Below are positions 20,582-28,846 of a stretch of 60,999 bases of DNA, piece by piece; positions within the stretch are counted from its first letter, which is position 1, and every line of letters begins with the position of its first letter. Where the stretch lies: contig CACJKN010000005.1 in assembly GCA_902594005.1 (NCBI GenBank), positions 1 through 60,999 on the forward strand, in the 5' to 3' direction. The notes beneath the pieces were generated by a model. That model saw nothing but the letters and a program-made list of their open reading frames with translations, was not told the DNA's origin and did not search any database. The translations under genes were made by a program, and so were the position numbers. The stretch is from an uncultured SAR86 cluster bacterium. Lineage in GTDB: Bacteria; Pseudomonadota; Gammaproteobacteria; Magnimaribacterales; D2472.

Positions 20582-21682
20582 TTAAACTGGGATTTTTTCA
20601 AATTCTTCAAGCGGTTTTCTCATCTCTGCCCAATCACACTCAAAATCATCTGGAGCATTTTCATATTCTAATAGACCAAGAGCCTCAAATTTTGGCCTCA
20701 CTTCGTCAGTAAGAAGACCAATTCTTGAAAGATTAGGTATAACTCTTGAGAAGAGGAAGTTTCTGAACATTTCAAAACTTCCAGTATTTAATTGGAACTC
20801 TCTAGCTTCTTCCTCTGTCATATTTAAAAAGCGTTGTTGAGACTTTGTATTGATAAGTCTTTCTCGTGAAATCACACAAGCTTCATATGCAAACTCGGCT
20901 CTTTCATTTATTTCTTCTGGACTCAAAGTTTTAATAAAATCTTCTAAATAATTAATGCCAAAAGTTACATGCCTAGCTTCATCTCTAATAACGTAGTGAA
21001 GTAACTGCTTTAAAAGAGGATCTTTTGATGTAGATTTCAGCATAGAGAAAGCTGCAAGAGCAAGACCTTCAATAATTATTTGCATCCCTATAAATTTAAG
21101 GTCCCATCTTTCATCAGTAAGGATTTTATCAAGCAGTGACTTTAATGCAGGATTAATAGGGTAGTGAATACCTATCTTTTCTTGAAGATATCTATTGAAA
21201 ACTTCAACATGTCTTGCTTCATCAAATGTTTGTGATGCTGCATAGAGCTTAGCATTATAGGTAGGTGCACAACTTGCTAATTGAGAAGCAACAAGGAGGG
21301 CACCTTGCTCACCATGCAAGAATTGACTCATTAATTCAGCAACATCATGTCTATCAAAAAGGATTTTTTCTTCATCCGATAGATTTTCATATGCTTCTAG
21401 TGTCTCATGAGGTAGCTCATCATCAGTCTCAAGGATTCTTTCATCTGCGGGATGCGTATAATCCCAGTTAAGATCAATTGACCCATTCCAGTTTAATTCT
21501 TTACCAAGCTCATAAAGCTTTTTAATTCTGTTATCTGCAACTGTGTAGTCCCAGTTATATGATCCAGTTAAAGGAGTTTTGAATATTTCAACTACATCCT
21601 CTACTTGTGATTGTGAGAGAGGAAGATCATCATCAAAATAAATTAAATCACTAGGTGGTCCGCTTTGTTTTTTTATTTTCAT
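20582..21682 (-). CDS. Ferritin-like di-iron oxidase/oxygenase of unknown substrate
   Basis: The 366-residue protein has a four-helix di-iron core with all six ligands visible: Glu125 (HGEQGAL), Glu155 and His158 (DEARHVE), Glu205 (IIEGLAL), Glu235 and His238 (DEARHVT). The spacing is like ribonucleotide-reductase R2-type and AurF/CmlI-type oxygenases, but no tyrosyl-radical context is evident. It is cytoplasmic. It lies 15 bases after cobT, yet has its own promoter inside the cobT 3' end. Position next to a CobS/CobT AAA+/VWA pair suggests these could load or remodel its metal site. The substrate is unknown. Confidence 0.75.
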   Translation of the reverse strand: MKIKKQSGPPSDLIYFDDDLPLSQSQVEDVVEIFKTPLTGSYNWDYTVADNRIKKLYELGKELNWNGSIDLNWDYTHPADERILETDDELPHETLEAYENLSDEEKILFDRHDVAELMSQFLHGEQGALLVASQLASCAPTYNAKLYAASQTFDEARHVEVFNRYLQEKIGIHYPINPALKSLLDKILTDERWDLKFIGMQIIIEGLALAAFSMLKSTSKDPLLKQLLHYVIRDEARHVTFGINYLEDFIKTLSPEEINERAEFAYEACVISRERLINTKSQQRFLNMTEEEAREFQLNTGSFEMFRNFLFSRVIPNLSRIGLLTDEVRPKFEALGLLEYENAPDDFECDWAEMRKPLEEFEKIPV

Positions 21683-21688
21683 AAATTA

Positions 21689-21718
21689 ATTATAAAGTTA
21701 TTCAAAAAGACCAGTCAA
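21689..21718 (-). promoter_or_regulatory. Near-consensus promoter giving a leaderless di-iron oxidase mRNA
   Basis: On the minus strand TTGACT (21713-21718) and a perfect TATAAT (21689-21694) are separated by 18 bases. The -10 box ends exactly 6 bases before the ATG at 21682, so the transcript should start at the start codon. It overlaps the 3' end of cobT (stop at 21698). No Shine-Dalgarno is present. Confidence 0.65.
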
Positions 21719-23440
21719 TTCATCTAACAGCGTTTCACCAAGACTGTCTGCATTACTTATTGTAATCGCATGATTATAGTATTTGGTAACATCATGACCG
21801 ATACCTATTGCTAATAACTCTATTTGATCTTTTTCATAAATATCCGCAATAACTTCTCTAAGATGATTATCAAGATAATGAGGATTATTTGCAGATAGAG
21901 AACTATCATCAACGGGAGCACCATCAGATATTACTATCATTATTTTTCTATCTTCAAATCTTTTTTGTAATCTTTTATTTGCCCACTGCAAAGCTTCGCC
22001 ATCTATGTTCTCTTTCAATAAACCATCTTTCAAGATAACGCCAAGAGATTTTCGTGATTTCCTCCAGCTATCCTCTGCTGATTTAAAAACGATGTGTCTC
22101 AAGTCATTTAATCTTCCTGGATGTGAAAAACCACCTCTTTGCAACCAACTCTTTCTTGAATCTCCACCTTTCCAATGTTTTGTTGTATAACCAAGAACTT
22201 CTGTTTTCACAGAACACCTCTCAAGCGTCGTTCCTATGATTTCAGCACAAACAGCAGCAAGATTTATTGATCTTCCCCTCATTGATCCTGAGCAGTCAAT
22301 CAATATTGATATTACGGTATCTTTAAAATCACTTTGCTTCTCTTCTTTAAAGCTTAATGGCTTGTTTGAATCAGTAATTATCCTAGTAAGCTTTGATGTA
22401 TCTAAAATTCCCTCATCTAGATCAAACTTCCAAGATCTATTCTGTTTCGCAAGTAATAAGCGCTGAAGCCTATTTGCTAATTTTCCAATTGTTTGCAAGT
22501 GGGGCTGAATGAGTTTATCTAACTGAATTCTTAGTCGGTTGATTTCTTTTAGATTTGAAAGTTCTGCTGCAGAAATAATCTCATCATACTTAGTGGTAAA
22601 AATAGAGTAATCAGAGCTTTCCTTTCCTATTTGATTATCATCAAAATCAACATTTGCTTCTAACTCTTCATCAATCGATATCTCAGCTTCTTGCAATATT
22701 TCTTGATCATCTGGGATTTCATCAACAAGAGATTGCATAAGATCTATTTCGTTATTAGGCTCCTCATCACTTTCAATTTCACTCATGTCATCAGATAAGC
22801 TCTCTTCATTTTCATCACTTTGTTCATCAAATTTTTCATTTTCTTCATGCTCATCTGACTTTTCGTGCTCCAATAATTTAAGAGCATCAAGTAAGGATAA
22901 TGAGCTTTTGAGAAAAGACTCTTCATTTTTCATTTTAGAAATCATATCTTCTGAAATTTTTTGAGCATTTCTTGAATTTATATTTGGGATTTGATCAATT
23001 AATCTTCTTTGCTCTTTGTCTAACTTAAATCCATTTAGATTTTTAAACCAAAGATTAATTAATGTAGGTAGCTGAATCTCATCATCGGCTAAATTTTTAG
23101 TAATATCGGATGAAAAATTTTGGATATTTAACTTAGCTCCGCTATATTCTTCAGAGCCTAAAATTTCTGCTCTTGCCATTTTAAGCTCATCAAAGATCTC
23201 ACCAGCTTCTCCAGGCAAAGTCTTTTTTATTTGATTATGTTGCAACCAAAATGCTTGCCTATCTGTTCTGCCTTTCCATGCAGATAATTTTCTCTTAATT
23301 CTTGGAGGATTTTTTAGATTTAATTTGGAACCTCTGGGAATAAGCCTATTGGAGTTCTCAGCAACAATCTCTTTATTTTTAGTTAATGCCTTAGTCCAGG
23401 ATAAAGCCGCATTTTGTTGTTCCTCACTATTAATAGCCAT
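21698..23440 (-). CDS. cobT: Cobaltochelatase CobT-like protein with VWA domain
   Basis: The 580-residue protein follows the CobT plan. The helical N-terminal half is followed by an acidic low-complexity stretch (about 191-270, rich in Glu/Asp). A C-terminal von Willebrand A domain has the MIDAS motif Asp382-x-Ser384-x-Ser386 (DCSGSMRG), and SDGAPVDD later. In aerobic B12 synthesis CobT works with CobS and CobN to insert cobalt. No cobN or other cob gene is in this window. It overlaps cobS by one base. Confidence 0.85.
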   Translation of the reverse strand: MAINSEEQQNAALSWTKALTKNKEIVAENSNRLIPRGSKLNLKNPPRIKRKLSAWKGRTDRQAFWLQHNQIKKTLPGEAGEIFDELKMARAEILGSEEYSGAKLNIQNFSSDITKNLADDEIQLPTLINLWFKNLNGFKLDKEQRRLIDQIPNINSRNAQKISEDMISKMKNEESFLKSSLSLLDALKLLEHEKSDEHEENEKFDEQSDENEESLSDDMSEIESDEEPNNEIDLMQSLVDEIPDDQEILQEAEISIDEELEANVDFDDNQIGKESSDYSIFTTKYDEIISAAELSNLKEINRLRIQLDKLIQPHLQTIGKLANRLQRLLLAKQNRSWKFDLDEGILDTSKLTRIITDSNKPLSFKEEKQSDFKDTVISILIDCSGSMRGRSINLAAVCAEIIGTTLERCSVKTEVLGYTTKHWKGGDSRKSWLQRGGFSHPGRLNDLRHIVFKSAEDSWRKSRKSLGVILKDGLLKENIDGEALQWANKRLQKRFEDRKIMIVISDGAPVDDSSLSANNPHYLDNHLREVIADIYEKDQIELLAIGIGHDVTKYYNHAITISNADSLGETLLDELTGLFE

Positions 23441-24414
23441 TAACTATTTTCTACTTCCAGCTCTTCGGCGAAACACCTCTGGAAATATTCGGCAACTATA
23501 GGTTTTTCAAGATCATCACATTTATTGAGAAAAGATAGTTTAAAAGATTCTTGAATATCCTTAAAAATAATAAAGTTTTCGGCCCAGGTTAAAAGTGTTC
23601 TAGGAGACATAAGATTTGATATATCACCATTGATGAAGCCCTGTCTTGTTAAGTTGCAAAGTTTAATCATATTAGAAAGTATTAATTTCCTTTTTGCAGA
23701 ATTAAAGCCTTTTAGTTTTCCAAGAACCAATTTTGACTCATGTTCAGGAGTTAAATAATTCAAAGTAGATAAAATATGCCATCTATCCATTTGGCCTTGA
23801 TTAATTTGTTGAGTTCCATGGTAAAGGCCTGTTGAGTCGCCCATTCCAATTGTATTTGTAGTCGCAAAAAGCCTAAAGTTCGAATGTGGTCTTAAAACTC
23901 TATTTTGATCCAATAAAGTAAGCTTCCCTTCGACTTCTAAAATCCTTTGTATTACAAACATAACATCAGGTCTTCCAGCATCATACTCATCGAAAACAAG
24001 AGCAACAGGATTTTGAATTGACCATGGAAGAATACCTTCTACAAATTTGGTAATCTGTTTTCCATCCTCTAGTTTAATAGCATCTTTACCAAGTAAATCT
24101 AATCTACTAACATGACTATCCAAATTAATTCTGATGCACGGCCAGTTCAATCTTGCTGCAACTTGTTCTATATGCGTTGATTTACCAGTTCCATGATAGC
24201 CTTGGATAATTACTCTTCTGTCATGCTCAAATCCAGCTAATATTGATAAGGTAGTTTTTTCATCAAATATATAAGAATTATCTATTTCTGGAACCCATTC
24301 AGTTTTTTCACTAAAGCCTTTTACAGTTAAATCAGAATTAATTTTAAAAGTTGACCTTACATTAACCTTTTGATCTGGCTTTTTTGGTAGATTAATTTTT
24401 TCTTCAGTATTCAT
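23440..24414 (-). CDS. cobS: Cobaltochelatase CobS-like AAA+ ATPase
   Basis: The 324-residue MoxR-type AAA+ protein has Walker A at 72-80 (GYHGTGKST), Walker B in VALVFDEYDAG near 137-147, sensor-1 Asn in ATTNTIG, and the arginine segment GQMDRW. The stretch around HVSRLDLLGKDAI is characteristic of CobS. It partners with the VWA protein CobT in the cobaltochelatase. The two genes overlap by one base. The upstream gap to the divergent SDR gene contains a 13-bp palindrome. Confidence 0.88.
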   Translation of the reverse strand: MNTEEKINLPKKPDQKVNVRSTFKINSDLTVKGFSEKTEWVPEIDNSYIFDEKTTLSILAGFEHDRRVIIQGYHGTGKSTHIEQVAARLNWPCIRINLDSHVSRLDLLGKDAIKLEDGKQITKFVEGILPWSIQNPVALVFDEYDAGRPDVMFVIQRILEVEGKLTLLDQNRVLRPHSNFRLFATTNTIGMGDSTGLYHGTQQINQGQMDRWHILSTLNYLTPEHESKLVLGKLKGFNSAKRKLILSNMIKLCNLTRQGFINGDISNLMSPRTLLTWAENFIIFKDIQESFKLSFLNKCDDLEKPIVAEYFQRCFAEELEVENS

Positions 24415-24453
24415 CTTATAAGCAATTTTTGAGTCCTGTATACTACATCCTGA

Positions 24454-24466
24454 GAAGTTAAACTTC
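24454..24466. promoter_or_regulatory. Palindrome in the cobS/SDR divergent intergenic region
   Basis: GAAGTT-A-AACTTC is a perfect 13-base palindrome in the 84-base gap between the divergent cobS and SDR genes. Its position makes it a plausible operator for a dimeric regulator acting on one or both genes. No matching known consensus is recognised, and an AT-rich gap can yield such a palindrome by chance. Confidence 0.35.
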
Positions 24467-24498
24467 CACTAATTATAAAATGTTTTTGAGTTTATAAA

Positions 24499-25254
24499 AT
24501 GAGTAATAGAGTAAAAAATAAAGTTGGTTTAATAACTGGAGCCGCCCAAGGTTTGGGCAAAGAAATGGCTAGATTATTAATTGAGGAAGGCGCCAAAATA
24601 GTCATGACTGATATAAATGAAGAGCTTTTGAAGAAGAGCGCAGAAGAGCTCAATGCCCCTTACTATGTTTTAGATGTTACCAAGCCAGAGGATTGGCAGA
24701 GTGTTTTAGGTAATATTGAAACTGAGTTCTCTCAACTCAATATTTTAATAAACAATGCCGGCATAGGAGGTGGCGGAGATGTTGAATCTTGTGATCTAGA
24801 AACATGGGATCAGGTTCACAAAGTTGATTTAGACTCAGTATTTTATGGATGTAAGTTTTCTCTTCCATTGATGAGGAAATCAGGGAATGGCTCGATTATA
24901 AATATTTCTTCAATTTCTGGGATTGTTGCAGGACATAACTTCTCAGCCTATAACTCAGCAAAAGCTGGAGTAAGGCATTTATCGAAGTCAGTTGCTCTAC
25001 ACTGCGCAAGAACTACCGATCTAGTAAGATGTAATTCTATTCATCCTGTTTTTACAAGAACAGAAATTCTGAAAGGTCTTTTTGATATGAACCCAGATGC
25101 TGACATAGAAGGAAAGCTTATAAAACAGATTCCAATAAGGAGATTGGGTGAGCCTATCGATATTGCTTATGCTGCATTATTTTTAGCATCAGATGAATCT
25201 TCAATGATAACGGGTACTGAACTTGTTATTGATGGAGGTTTAAGTGCCCAATAA
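24499..25254 (+). CDS. Short-chain dehydrogenase (NAD-dependent, FabG-like)
   Basis: The 251-residue protein has the classical SDR motifs: TGAAQGLG (14-21), NNAGIGG near 88-94, catalytic Ser in INISSISG, YNSAKAG at about 153-159, and a C-terminal EPIDIAYAALFLASDESSMITG followed by IDGG. An Asp ending the second strand (VMTDIN) favours NAD(H). It overlaps the thioesterase gene by 11 bases, so the pair likely works in acyl or hydroxyacid metabolism. The substrate is not defined. Confidence 0.87.
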   Translation: MSNRVKNKVGLITGAAQGLGKEMARLLIEEGAKIVMTDINEELLKKSAEELNAPYYVLDVTKPEDWQSVLGNIETEFSQLNILINNAGIGGGGDVESCDLETWDQVHKVDLDSVFYGCKFSLPLMRKSGNGSIINISSISGIVAGHNFSAYNSAKAGVRHLSKSVALHCARTTDLVRCNSIHPVFTRTEILKGLFDMNPDADIEGKLIKQIPIRRLGEPIDIAYAALFLASDESSMITGTELVIDGGLSAQ

Positions 25255-26127
25255 AAAGGCTATAAAAAGTACTTTAGGGCTATTTAATTTGGATAGAATT
25301 GACAGAGATGTCTTCCAATGGAGAGGTCAAAACTTTGGCTGGCAAAGAATTTATGGCGGCCAAGTCATGGCGCAATGCCTTATTGCCGCAGATCATACTG
25401 TAGAAGCCCCTCATCATGCTCATTCTTTCCATTCTTATTTTTTAAGACCAGGAATTATGGAGGAATCAATATTATTTGATGTTGATAGAATCAGGAATGG
25501 AAAAAGTTTTACTACTAGAAGAGTTAGAGCTATCCAAAATGGCGAGGCAATATTTGCATGTTCAATTTCTTTCCAAAAAGAAGAAAAAGGATTTGAGCAT
25601 CAGATTGATATAGACCTTAACGAAATTCCAAAACCTGAAGATCTTCCAAGCGACTGGGAGCTAAGAAATAAAGCAATTGAACAACTTCATGGGAAAAAAA
25701 AGGATAAGTTCTTTTTAAGAGAGCAAGAAATTGAAATGCGAGCCACTCAAAACTTTGACTATGTTCAACCAAAAAAGAGTGAGCCATTAAGGGATATTTG
25801 GATGAGACCAAATGGTGAAATTCCTAGTGACTTAGTGATTAATCAAGCACTATTATTGTATGCATCAGACCGTGGCTTGCTTGGCACTGCTCAACTGCCC
25901 CATGGAATTAATTTTATGTCTAAGTATTTTCAAAGCGCTAGCTTAGATCATGCTATGTGGTTTCATTCAAAGGTAGATTTTTCAGACTGGATGCTTTATC
26001 GAATTGATAGCCCTATAGCAAGGAATGCAAGAGGATTCTCAAGAGGATCTATTTTTGATTCTAAAGGCAAACTAGTTGCAAGTTGCGTTCAGGAAGGATT
26101 AATGAGGATGTGGGACAAGCCGAAAGA

Positions 26128-26131
<4 letters not shown>
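25244..26131 (+). CDS. tesB: Acyl-CoA thioesterase II (TesB)
   Basis: The 295-residue protein is a double hotdog thioesterase. The first half has RIYGGQVMAQ and HSFHSYFLRPG. The second half has the conserved Asp in YASDRGLL, HSKVDFSDWMLY, ARGFSRGSIFD and the Gln in VQEGLMRM. The E. coli active-site Thr position is taken by the S-P of DSPIAR, as in some other family members. It hydrolyses acyl-CoA to free acid. The start is GTG, fixed by GGAGGT (25234-25239) four bases upstream, inside the SDR gene. It converges on hemE, overlapping it by 4 bases. Confidence 0.92.

Positions 26132-28846
<2,715 letters not shown>

Follow-up and report, generated by a model that had tools for sequence, protein, structure and literature searches.

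In SAR86, among the most abundant bacteria of the ocean, two motor proteins of the cobaltochelatase family may have been turned to the service of an iron enzyme. Within the DNA analyzed here (the window: 60,999 nucleotides, contig CACJKN010000005.1, from an uncultured SAR86 cluster bacterium), a presumed operon would couple CobS and CobT (together CobST), detached from CobN and from B12 synthesis, with an AurF/ADO-like di-iron oxygenase. We put at roughly 0.4 the probability that this orphan pair is reused as an activator of the MoxR/VWA type with the neighboring di-iron oxygenase as its likeliest client, a reading that leans on analogy with NorQ/NorD. Only tentatively do we take the further step of seeing in CobST, in SAR86 and in the gammaproteobacterium AqS3, an AAA+/VWA activator dedicated to a ferritin-fold di-iron oxygenase and changed from a cobaltochelatase motor, in which case a SAR86 cobST annotation would be no sign of B12 synthesis. 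The three genes are:

23440-24414, minus strand: cobS, AAA+ ATPase of the cobaltochelatase CobS family, 324 residues (TIGR01650; Walker A GYHGTGKS, Walker B FDEYDA)
21698-23440, minus strand: cobT, 580 residues, with an N-terminal domain (about 1-190), an acidic low-confidence linker (about 190-290) and a C-terminal VWA domain with metal ion-dependent adhesion site (MIDAS) DCSGSM
20582-21682, minus strand: AurF-like ferritin-fold di-iron protein, 366 residues, predicted oxygenase or oxidase (presumed ligands E125, E155, H158, E205, E235, H238)

The initial annotation had placed these genes side by side with 15-base spacing, and both its coordinates and its family assignments are borne out. Because cobS and cobT overlap by one base, and the di-iron gene follows cobT after 15 bases on the same strand, the block is likely a single operon. 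The named SAR86 record AG-894-D08 (L196) carries the same trio, at 99% (CobS), 93% (CobT) and 99% (di-iron protein) identity.

CobST had also been described as an orphan, and searches across SAR86 agree. We found no CobN in the window's own assembly (0.99 Mb, 79% complete), nor in any of the 72 CobT-bearing genomes among 101 SAR86 genomes; the 101 yielded a single partial match, in a genome without CobT (G080, 64% complete). CbiC (CbiC/CobH, our marker of the corrin pathway and the one corrin gene searched for) was absent from all 61 SAR86 genomes searched, the window's assembly included. The B12-binding domain PF02310, at E 1e-8, occurred in 11 of 61 SAR86 genomes and was missing from 33 of 41 that bear CobT. 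The same searches in 14 named control genomes returned CobN in 5, CbiC in 7 and the B12-binding domain in 12. The combination that the initial annotation named as refuting its proposal, CobN elsewhere in the genome together with a di-iron gene unlinked to cobST, did not appear. Judged by gene content, a role for CobST in B12 synthesis in SAR86 is very unlikely. One paper, in the part cited here, reports on the authority of another that B12 biosynthesis is encoded in the one genome sequenced from a SAR86 subclade (PMC9296465); our CobN and CbiC searches lend that statement no support in the genomes searched. In the wider class, CobT was present in 14 of 274 genomes; because only 3 of those 14 have CobN, orphan CobT is, on the same kind of evidence, not confined to SAR86.

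Both proteins retain the motifs of an AAA+/VWA pair. CobS matches TIGR01650 (E 8e-154, 511.7 bits) and CobT matches TIGR01651 (E 2e-146, 488.9 bits), each below its curated equivalog cut-off (558.55 and 759.05, respectively) in a test run with no true CobS or CobT as control. Pfam AAA_5 and CobT_C were matched in CobS and CobT, and most of each protein can be aligned with solved cobaltochelatase subunits (PDB 9uka, 9ujv). An AAA+ ATPase with Walker A and Walker B is encoded beside a VWA protein with a MIDAS, as in MoxR/VWA pairs, and across SAR86 and AqS3 these motifs are intact (Walker A and Walker B each in 23/23 CobS, MIDAS in 22/22 CobT). A sensor-1-like pattern of our own (7/23 CobS; too narrow) and an MDRW motif (21/23) were not used as evidence.

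The predicted structure of CobT comprises a folded N-terminal domain, a low-confidence linker and a VWA domain (mean predicted local distance difference test score, pLDDT, 66; predicted template modeling score 0.38). NorD VWA chains rank 2, 5 and 6 among its fold matches, complement and integrin VWA domains score about alike, and 9uka is not among the best 50 fold-library matches listed; as far as the model goes, the likeness is to the VWA domain in general, not to NorD in particular. The VWA domain has kept its score: 273 bits for the window's CobT, 268-370 for ten others. By contrast, the N-terminal family score is 44 bits in the window versus 313-325 in Rhizobium and Cereibacter, with intermediate values in four other proteins (154-229), AqS3 (120) and three SAR86 proteins (60-109). 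We considered this divergence as a mark of a new client and dropped the idea, because two of the four proteins at 154-229 come from CobN-bearing gammaproteobacteria and score low as well (154-184). The N-terminal domain of NorD has been suggested, in the excerpt cited, to confer client specificity (PMC9976466). Because PDB 21vu pairs an N-terminal chain of CobT with a C-terminal chain of CobS, the corresponding domain of CobT may bind CobS rather than a client.

The full E-ExxH-E-ExxH di-iron site noticed in the initial annotation is borne out by its conservation: the presumed ligand set E125, E155xxH158, E205, E235xxH238 is invariant in 84/84 aligned homologs, a count that includes three "out" rows (two AqS3 copies and one G113 copy) omitted from the residue-signature count below. 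The protein passes the Pfam AurF cut-off (43.6 bits versus 29.6). Its model (mean pLDDT 77, residues 1-50 unsure) matches R2-like ligand-binding oxidases (R2lox), aldehyde-deformylating oxygenases (ADO) and VlmB with Z of 18-20 over about 205-245 residues; Foldseek E-values are weak, about 1e-3, and identity to ADO, R2lox and VlmB in the structural alignments is 14-19%. Scores stay far from the NCBIfam equivalog cut-offs for R2lox and ADO (at best 34.3 bits versus 194, for R2lox). The predicted product is an AurF/ADO-like di-iron oxygenase or oxidase.

Linkage of cobST to a di-iron gene of this family, noted earlier for this locus, recurs outside SAR86. Gammaproteobacteria bacterium AqS3 (G145), which we take to be a sponge symbiont, consistent with the literature on it, has three di-iron genes, one adjoining cobS-cobT divergently, and no CobN match. 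Compared with the SAR86 proteins of 41 loci (the window and 40 fetched loci), the 19-kb AqS3 locus gave matches at their own place for CobS, CobT and the di-iron protein only; one further match, on the opposite strand inside cobT, came from an antisense open reading frame over a SAR86 cobT. A CobS+CobT tree of 29 rows unites 11 SAR86 loci with AqS3 in a single clade (97/92). Because the trio occurs in AqS3 without the SAR86 flanks compared and the CobST proteins fall together in the tree, the association probably predates the split between SAR86 and AqS3, as judged from this one outside lineage.

On the other side of cobS in the window lie a short gap and two genes that serve as synteny markers:

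24415-24498, no strand: divergent gap between cobS and the short-chain dehydrogenase/reductase (SDR) gene, 84 bases, presumed site of the operon promoter
24499-26131, plus strand: SDR and acyl-CoA thioesterase (TesB-like, by eye) genes, outside the proposed system

A consensus promoter scan listed no candidate within the 84-base gap, and the promoter and terminator scan gave counts lower than the shuffled mean. Genes near the di-iron gene (thioesterase, SDR or enoyl-CoA-hydratase-like, partly read by eye) point only loosely to acyl-CoA or lipid chemistry. Beyond the di-iron gene, the neighbors vary by SAR86 family: a carotenoid-oxygenase-like gene in one f2 locus (L047 12232-13656), beta-helix and cytochrome-like genes in one f1 locus (L046 4628-6887; by eye).

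Within SAR86, 72 of the 101 genomes have CobT and 96 have the di-iron gene. In 69 of the 72, cobT is followed by a di-iron gene read in the same direction, at most 173 bases away in 57 and 1.2-2.2 kb away in 12. G005 (L048), the only one of these twelve loci that was fetched, has the gap filled by a first tandem di-iron copy; f2 loci have two tandem di-iron genes after cobT, and in G030 (L042 10766-11617) the second tandem copy is N-terminally shortened, to 283 residues. Of the remaining three, G088 and G039 have their match at a contig end and that of G091 is a fragment. CobT was not matched in 8 of 80 f1-f3 genomes. Seven of these were tested (all except G100): six have no neighboring thioesterase gene either, and G045 has it close to a contig start. 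The assemblies thus probably lack this region, and joint loss of cobST and the di-iron gene among f1-f3 genomes is uninformative.

Linkage within SAR86 is also what would be expected if CobST serves some other, unlinked client, whether a metalloprotein or a complex, and its place beside the di-iron gene reflects an operon inherited as it stood, with no dependence in function. We consider this nearly as likely as a di-iron client, and several results that weigh against our preferred interpretation speak for it. In a synteny control covering 800 kb of G003 and one short stretch, 25 of 27 window neighbor pairs had matches within 6 kb (in parts of G008, a genome of family f4, 1 of 4 pairs was kept). 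Because SAR86 gene order is conserved anyway, the 69/72 count is weak and we give it little weight as proof. Further, none of the 21 f4 genomes has CobT, and 19 have a di-iron match (18 strong); in four of seven f4 loci (L057, L058, L123, L124) TesB, SDR and di-iron genes stand together with only cobST missing. In f4, cobST appears to have been lost rather than primarily absent. Many SAR86 genomes, the window's own included, carry a second di-iron paralog that is not linked to cobST.

The wider distribution of the di-iron gene points the same way. We kept the best 80 of 497 loci from a di-iron locus search; among these 80, 29 of 42 SAR86-like loci have CobT, and of the 38 loci whose di-iron protein is less than 74% identical to that of SAR86, only the AqS3 locus contains cobST. 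Behind these 38 stand 35 genomes, among them Alcanivorax and Halieaceae (L144 was left out, as were L192 and L208, whose genomes were already in the set). No CobT match was found in 32 of the 35; the three with a match are AqS3, MT_MAG1 and a metagenome-assembled genome titled Caulobacteraceae, and the match lies within 6 kb of the di-iron gene in just one.

Nor do the di-iron proteins bear a mark of CobST. Three alignment columns separate linked from unlinked copies, versus 10-74 for natural subgroups, and we found no residue signature of the cobST-linked copies. The linked AqS3 copy falls outside the window di-iron clade (100/98) and is not an orthologue of the window's copy; its grouping with the f2 first copies in the di-iron tree (support just 27/53) was not used. 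L110, L111 and the shortened second copy of L042 were dropped before the first di-iron tree, L109 from three later sets, those of the residue signature and of the tree with AqS3 included, and L108 from the last of these only. We also rejected faster di-iron divergence after loss of cobST: identity to f1 is 61% in f4 and 75% in f3, in fourteen other gene groups the difference ranges from +5.8 to -17.5 points (a comparison that used parts of G008 and G003), and f2 second-position copies, which have CobST, are likewise 59-64% identical to the window protein. Elsewhere, CobST adjoins Xsc- or Pta-like genes (by eye) and, in Pandoraea, a urease cluster. Against an unlinked client, AqS3 lacks the SAR86 flanks compared and still has a di-iron gene next to cobS, an adjacency whose chance probability we estimate at about 0.2% (three copies among roughly 3,000 genes).

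These results lend no support to a dependence of the di-iron enzyme on CobST: f4 keeps the gene without the pair, most of the outside genomes searched have no CobT match, and no CobST-specific residues were found. The suggestion of the initial annotation, repurposing of the pair for a di-iron oxidase, keeps the support of the orphan state, the intact motifs and the AqS3 linkage, and such repurposing is plausible. We favor for CobST the role of an activator or metal loader driven by ATP because CobT has the same layout as NorD. CobS would be the AAA+ motor and CobT, with its N-terminal domain, linker and MIDAS-bearing VWA domain, the partner, the two working much as NorQ and NorD may. The VWA domain would grip an acidic site on the client, and ATP hydrolysis would remodel the client such that its metal site is loaded or restored. 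In the SAR86/AqS3 lineage this client would most likely be the neighboring di-iron oxygenase, whose activity CobST would improve without being required for it. We infer each of these parts: the existence of a protein client for CobST, its identity with the di-iron protein, and metal loading or reactivation as the action. To our knowledge, a di-iron client would be the first for this motor family.

It is also conceivable, if unlikely, that CobST and the di-iron protein share a pathway without direct contact, for example by both serving a third enzyme or with the di-iron protein as an accessory. The common operon, its recurrence in AqS3 and the hint of lipid or acyl-CoA chemistry in the nearby genes fit this arrangement; however, the AqS3 locus and the SAR86 loci compared with it were found to share no third gene. 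Continued work in the metallation or repair of cobalamin or another tetrapyrrole, with an unrecognized large subunit, is improbable. The CobT VWA domain of the window is 58-60% identical to those of four alphaproteobacterial CobT, CobS residues 8-319 align with 9ujv, and hemE, the nearest tetrapyrrole gene noticed (by eye, among window genes only partly annotated for cob), lies 1.7 kb away at 26128-27174; but no CobN was found in CobT-bearing SAR86 genomes, CbiC was not found, 33 of 41 CobT-bearing genomes have no B12-binding protein, and both CobS and CobT score under the equivalog cut-offs in the control-free test above. Least probable of all is that a B12 pathway was lost and cobST is its decaying remnant: the absence of the pair from f4 and the low Pfam score of the CobT N-terminal domain are compatible with decay, but no copy checked lacks Walker A, Walker B or the MIDAS, none of the 72 SAR86 CobT matches contains an internal stop codon, and the N-terminal domain is still predicted to fold (pLDDT 71-91 per ten-residue block over residues 1-190).

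If CobST does serve an iron enzyme, as we prefer to think, the cobST pair would be an unsafe marker for predicting B12 makers, and the range of metal enzymes serviced by AAA+/VWA motors would widen. Among the best matches from the open-licence literature, we found no report linking CobST with a di-iron protein, nor one of orphan SAR86 CobST. Because CobST is found in urease, Xsc/Pta and MttB-like/corrinoid settings, there is a hint that it has been reused more than once, perhaps with different metal enzymes among its clients. On Pandoraea oxalativorans plasmid pPO70-1 (L219 4213-7050), the only plasmid record at near identity, cobS-cobT stands after ureG, overlapping it by 11 bases, within a cluster of urease genes. 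Genes read by eye as Xsc (sulfoacetaldehyde acetyltransferase) or Pta (phosphotransacetylase) lie near CobST in L103, from a genome with CobN, and in L104 and L105, from genomes without it; in L096 and L097 the neighbors are genes for MttB-like and corrinoid proteins (by eye). CobT-like matches were also obtained from 959 plasmid records, of which Klebsiella, Escherichia or Acinetobacter account for 721, and from 45 phage records; no match covers 80% of the SAR86 protein, and these are probably phage or phage-plasmid versions. The second di-iron paralog of SAR86 lies in a housekeeping locus near dnaB (L059 6982-8073, G000:C12; L060 6833-7909), with the order dnaB-alr-[di-iron]-pyrG-kdsA-eno in L059 (genes named by eye).

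Three known systems invite comparison. With the CobNST cobaltochelatase the locus shares the CobS and CobT subunits, the cobS-cobT order and long alignments with 9uka and 9ujv; it differs in that no CobN and no CbiC were found, the CobT N-terminal domain is strongly diverged and neither equivalog cut-off is reached. With AurF, ADO, R2lox and VlmB the di-iron protein shares a ferritin-fold di-iron core, as seen in the passed Pfam AurF cut-off and the fold Z of 18-20, whereas identity is low (14-19%) and the R2lox and ADO NCBIfam scores fall short. We know of no enzyme of these types that needs an AAA+ activator. By analogy, NorQ/NorD is the nearest worked-out machine for CobST. As described in the excerpts cited, NorQD is essential for non-heme iron insertion into nitric oxide reductase, an insertion thought to be driven by a hexameric AAA+ ring with a VWA partner composed of N-domain, linker and MIDAS (PMC13036017, PMC9976466). 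Common to both systems, on that description, are an AAA+ protein with a VWA partner, the N-domain/linker/VWA layout, the MIDAS and an adjacent iron enzyme gene. By contrast, CobS and CobT belong by sequence to the cobaltochelatase family, the proposed client is a ferritin-fold protein rather than a nitric oxide reductase, and the SAR86 system is known here from its genes alone.

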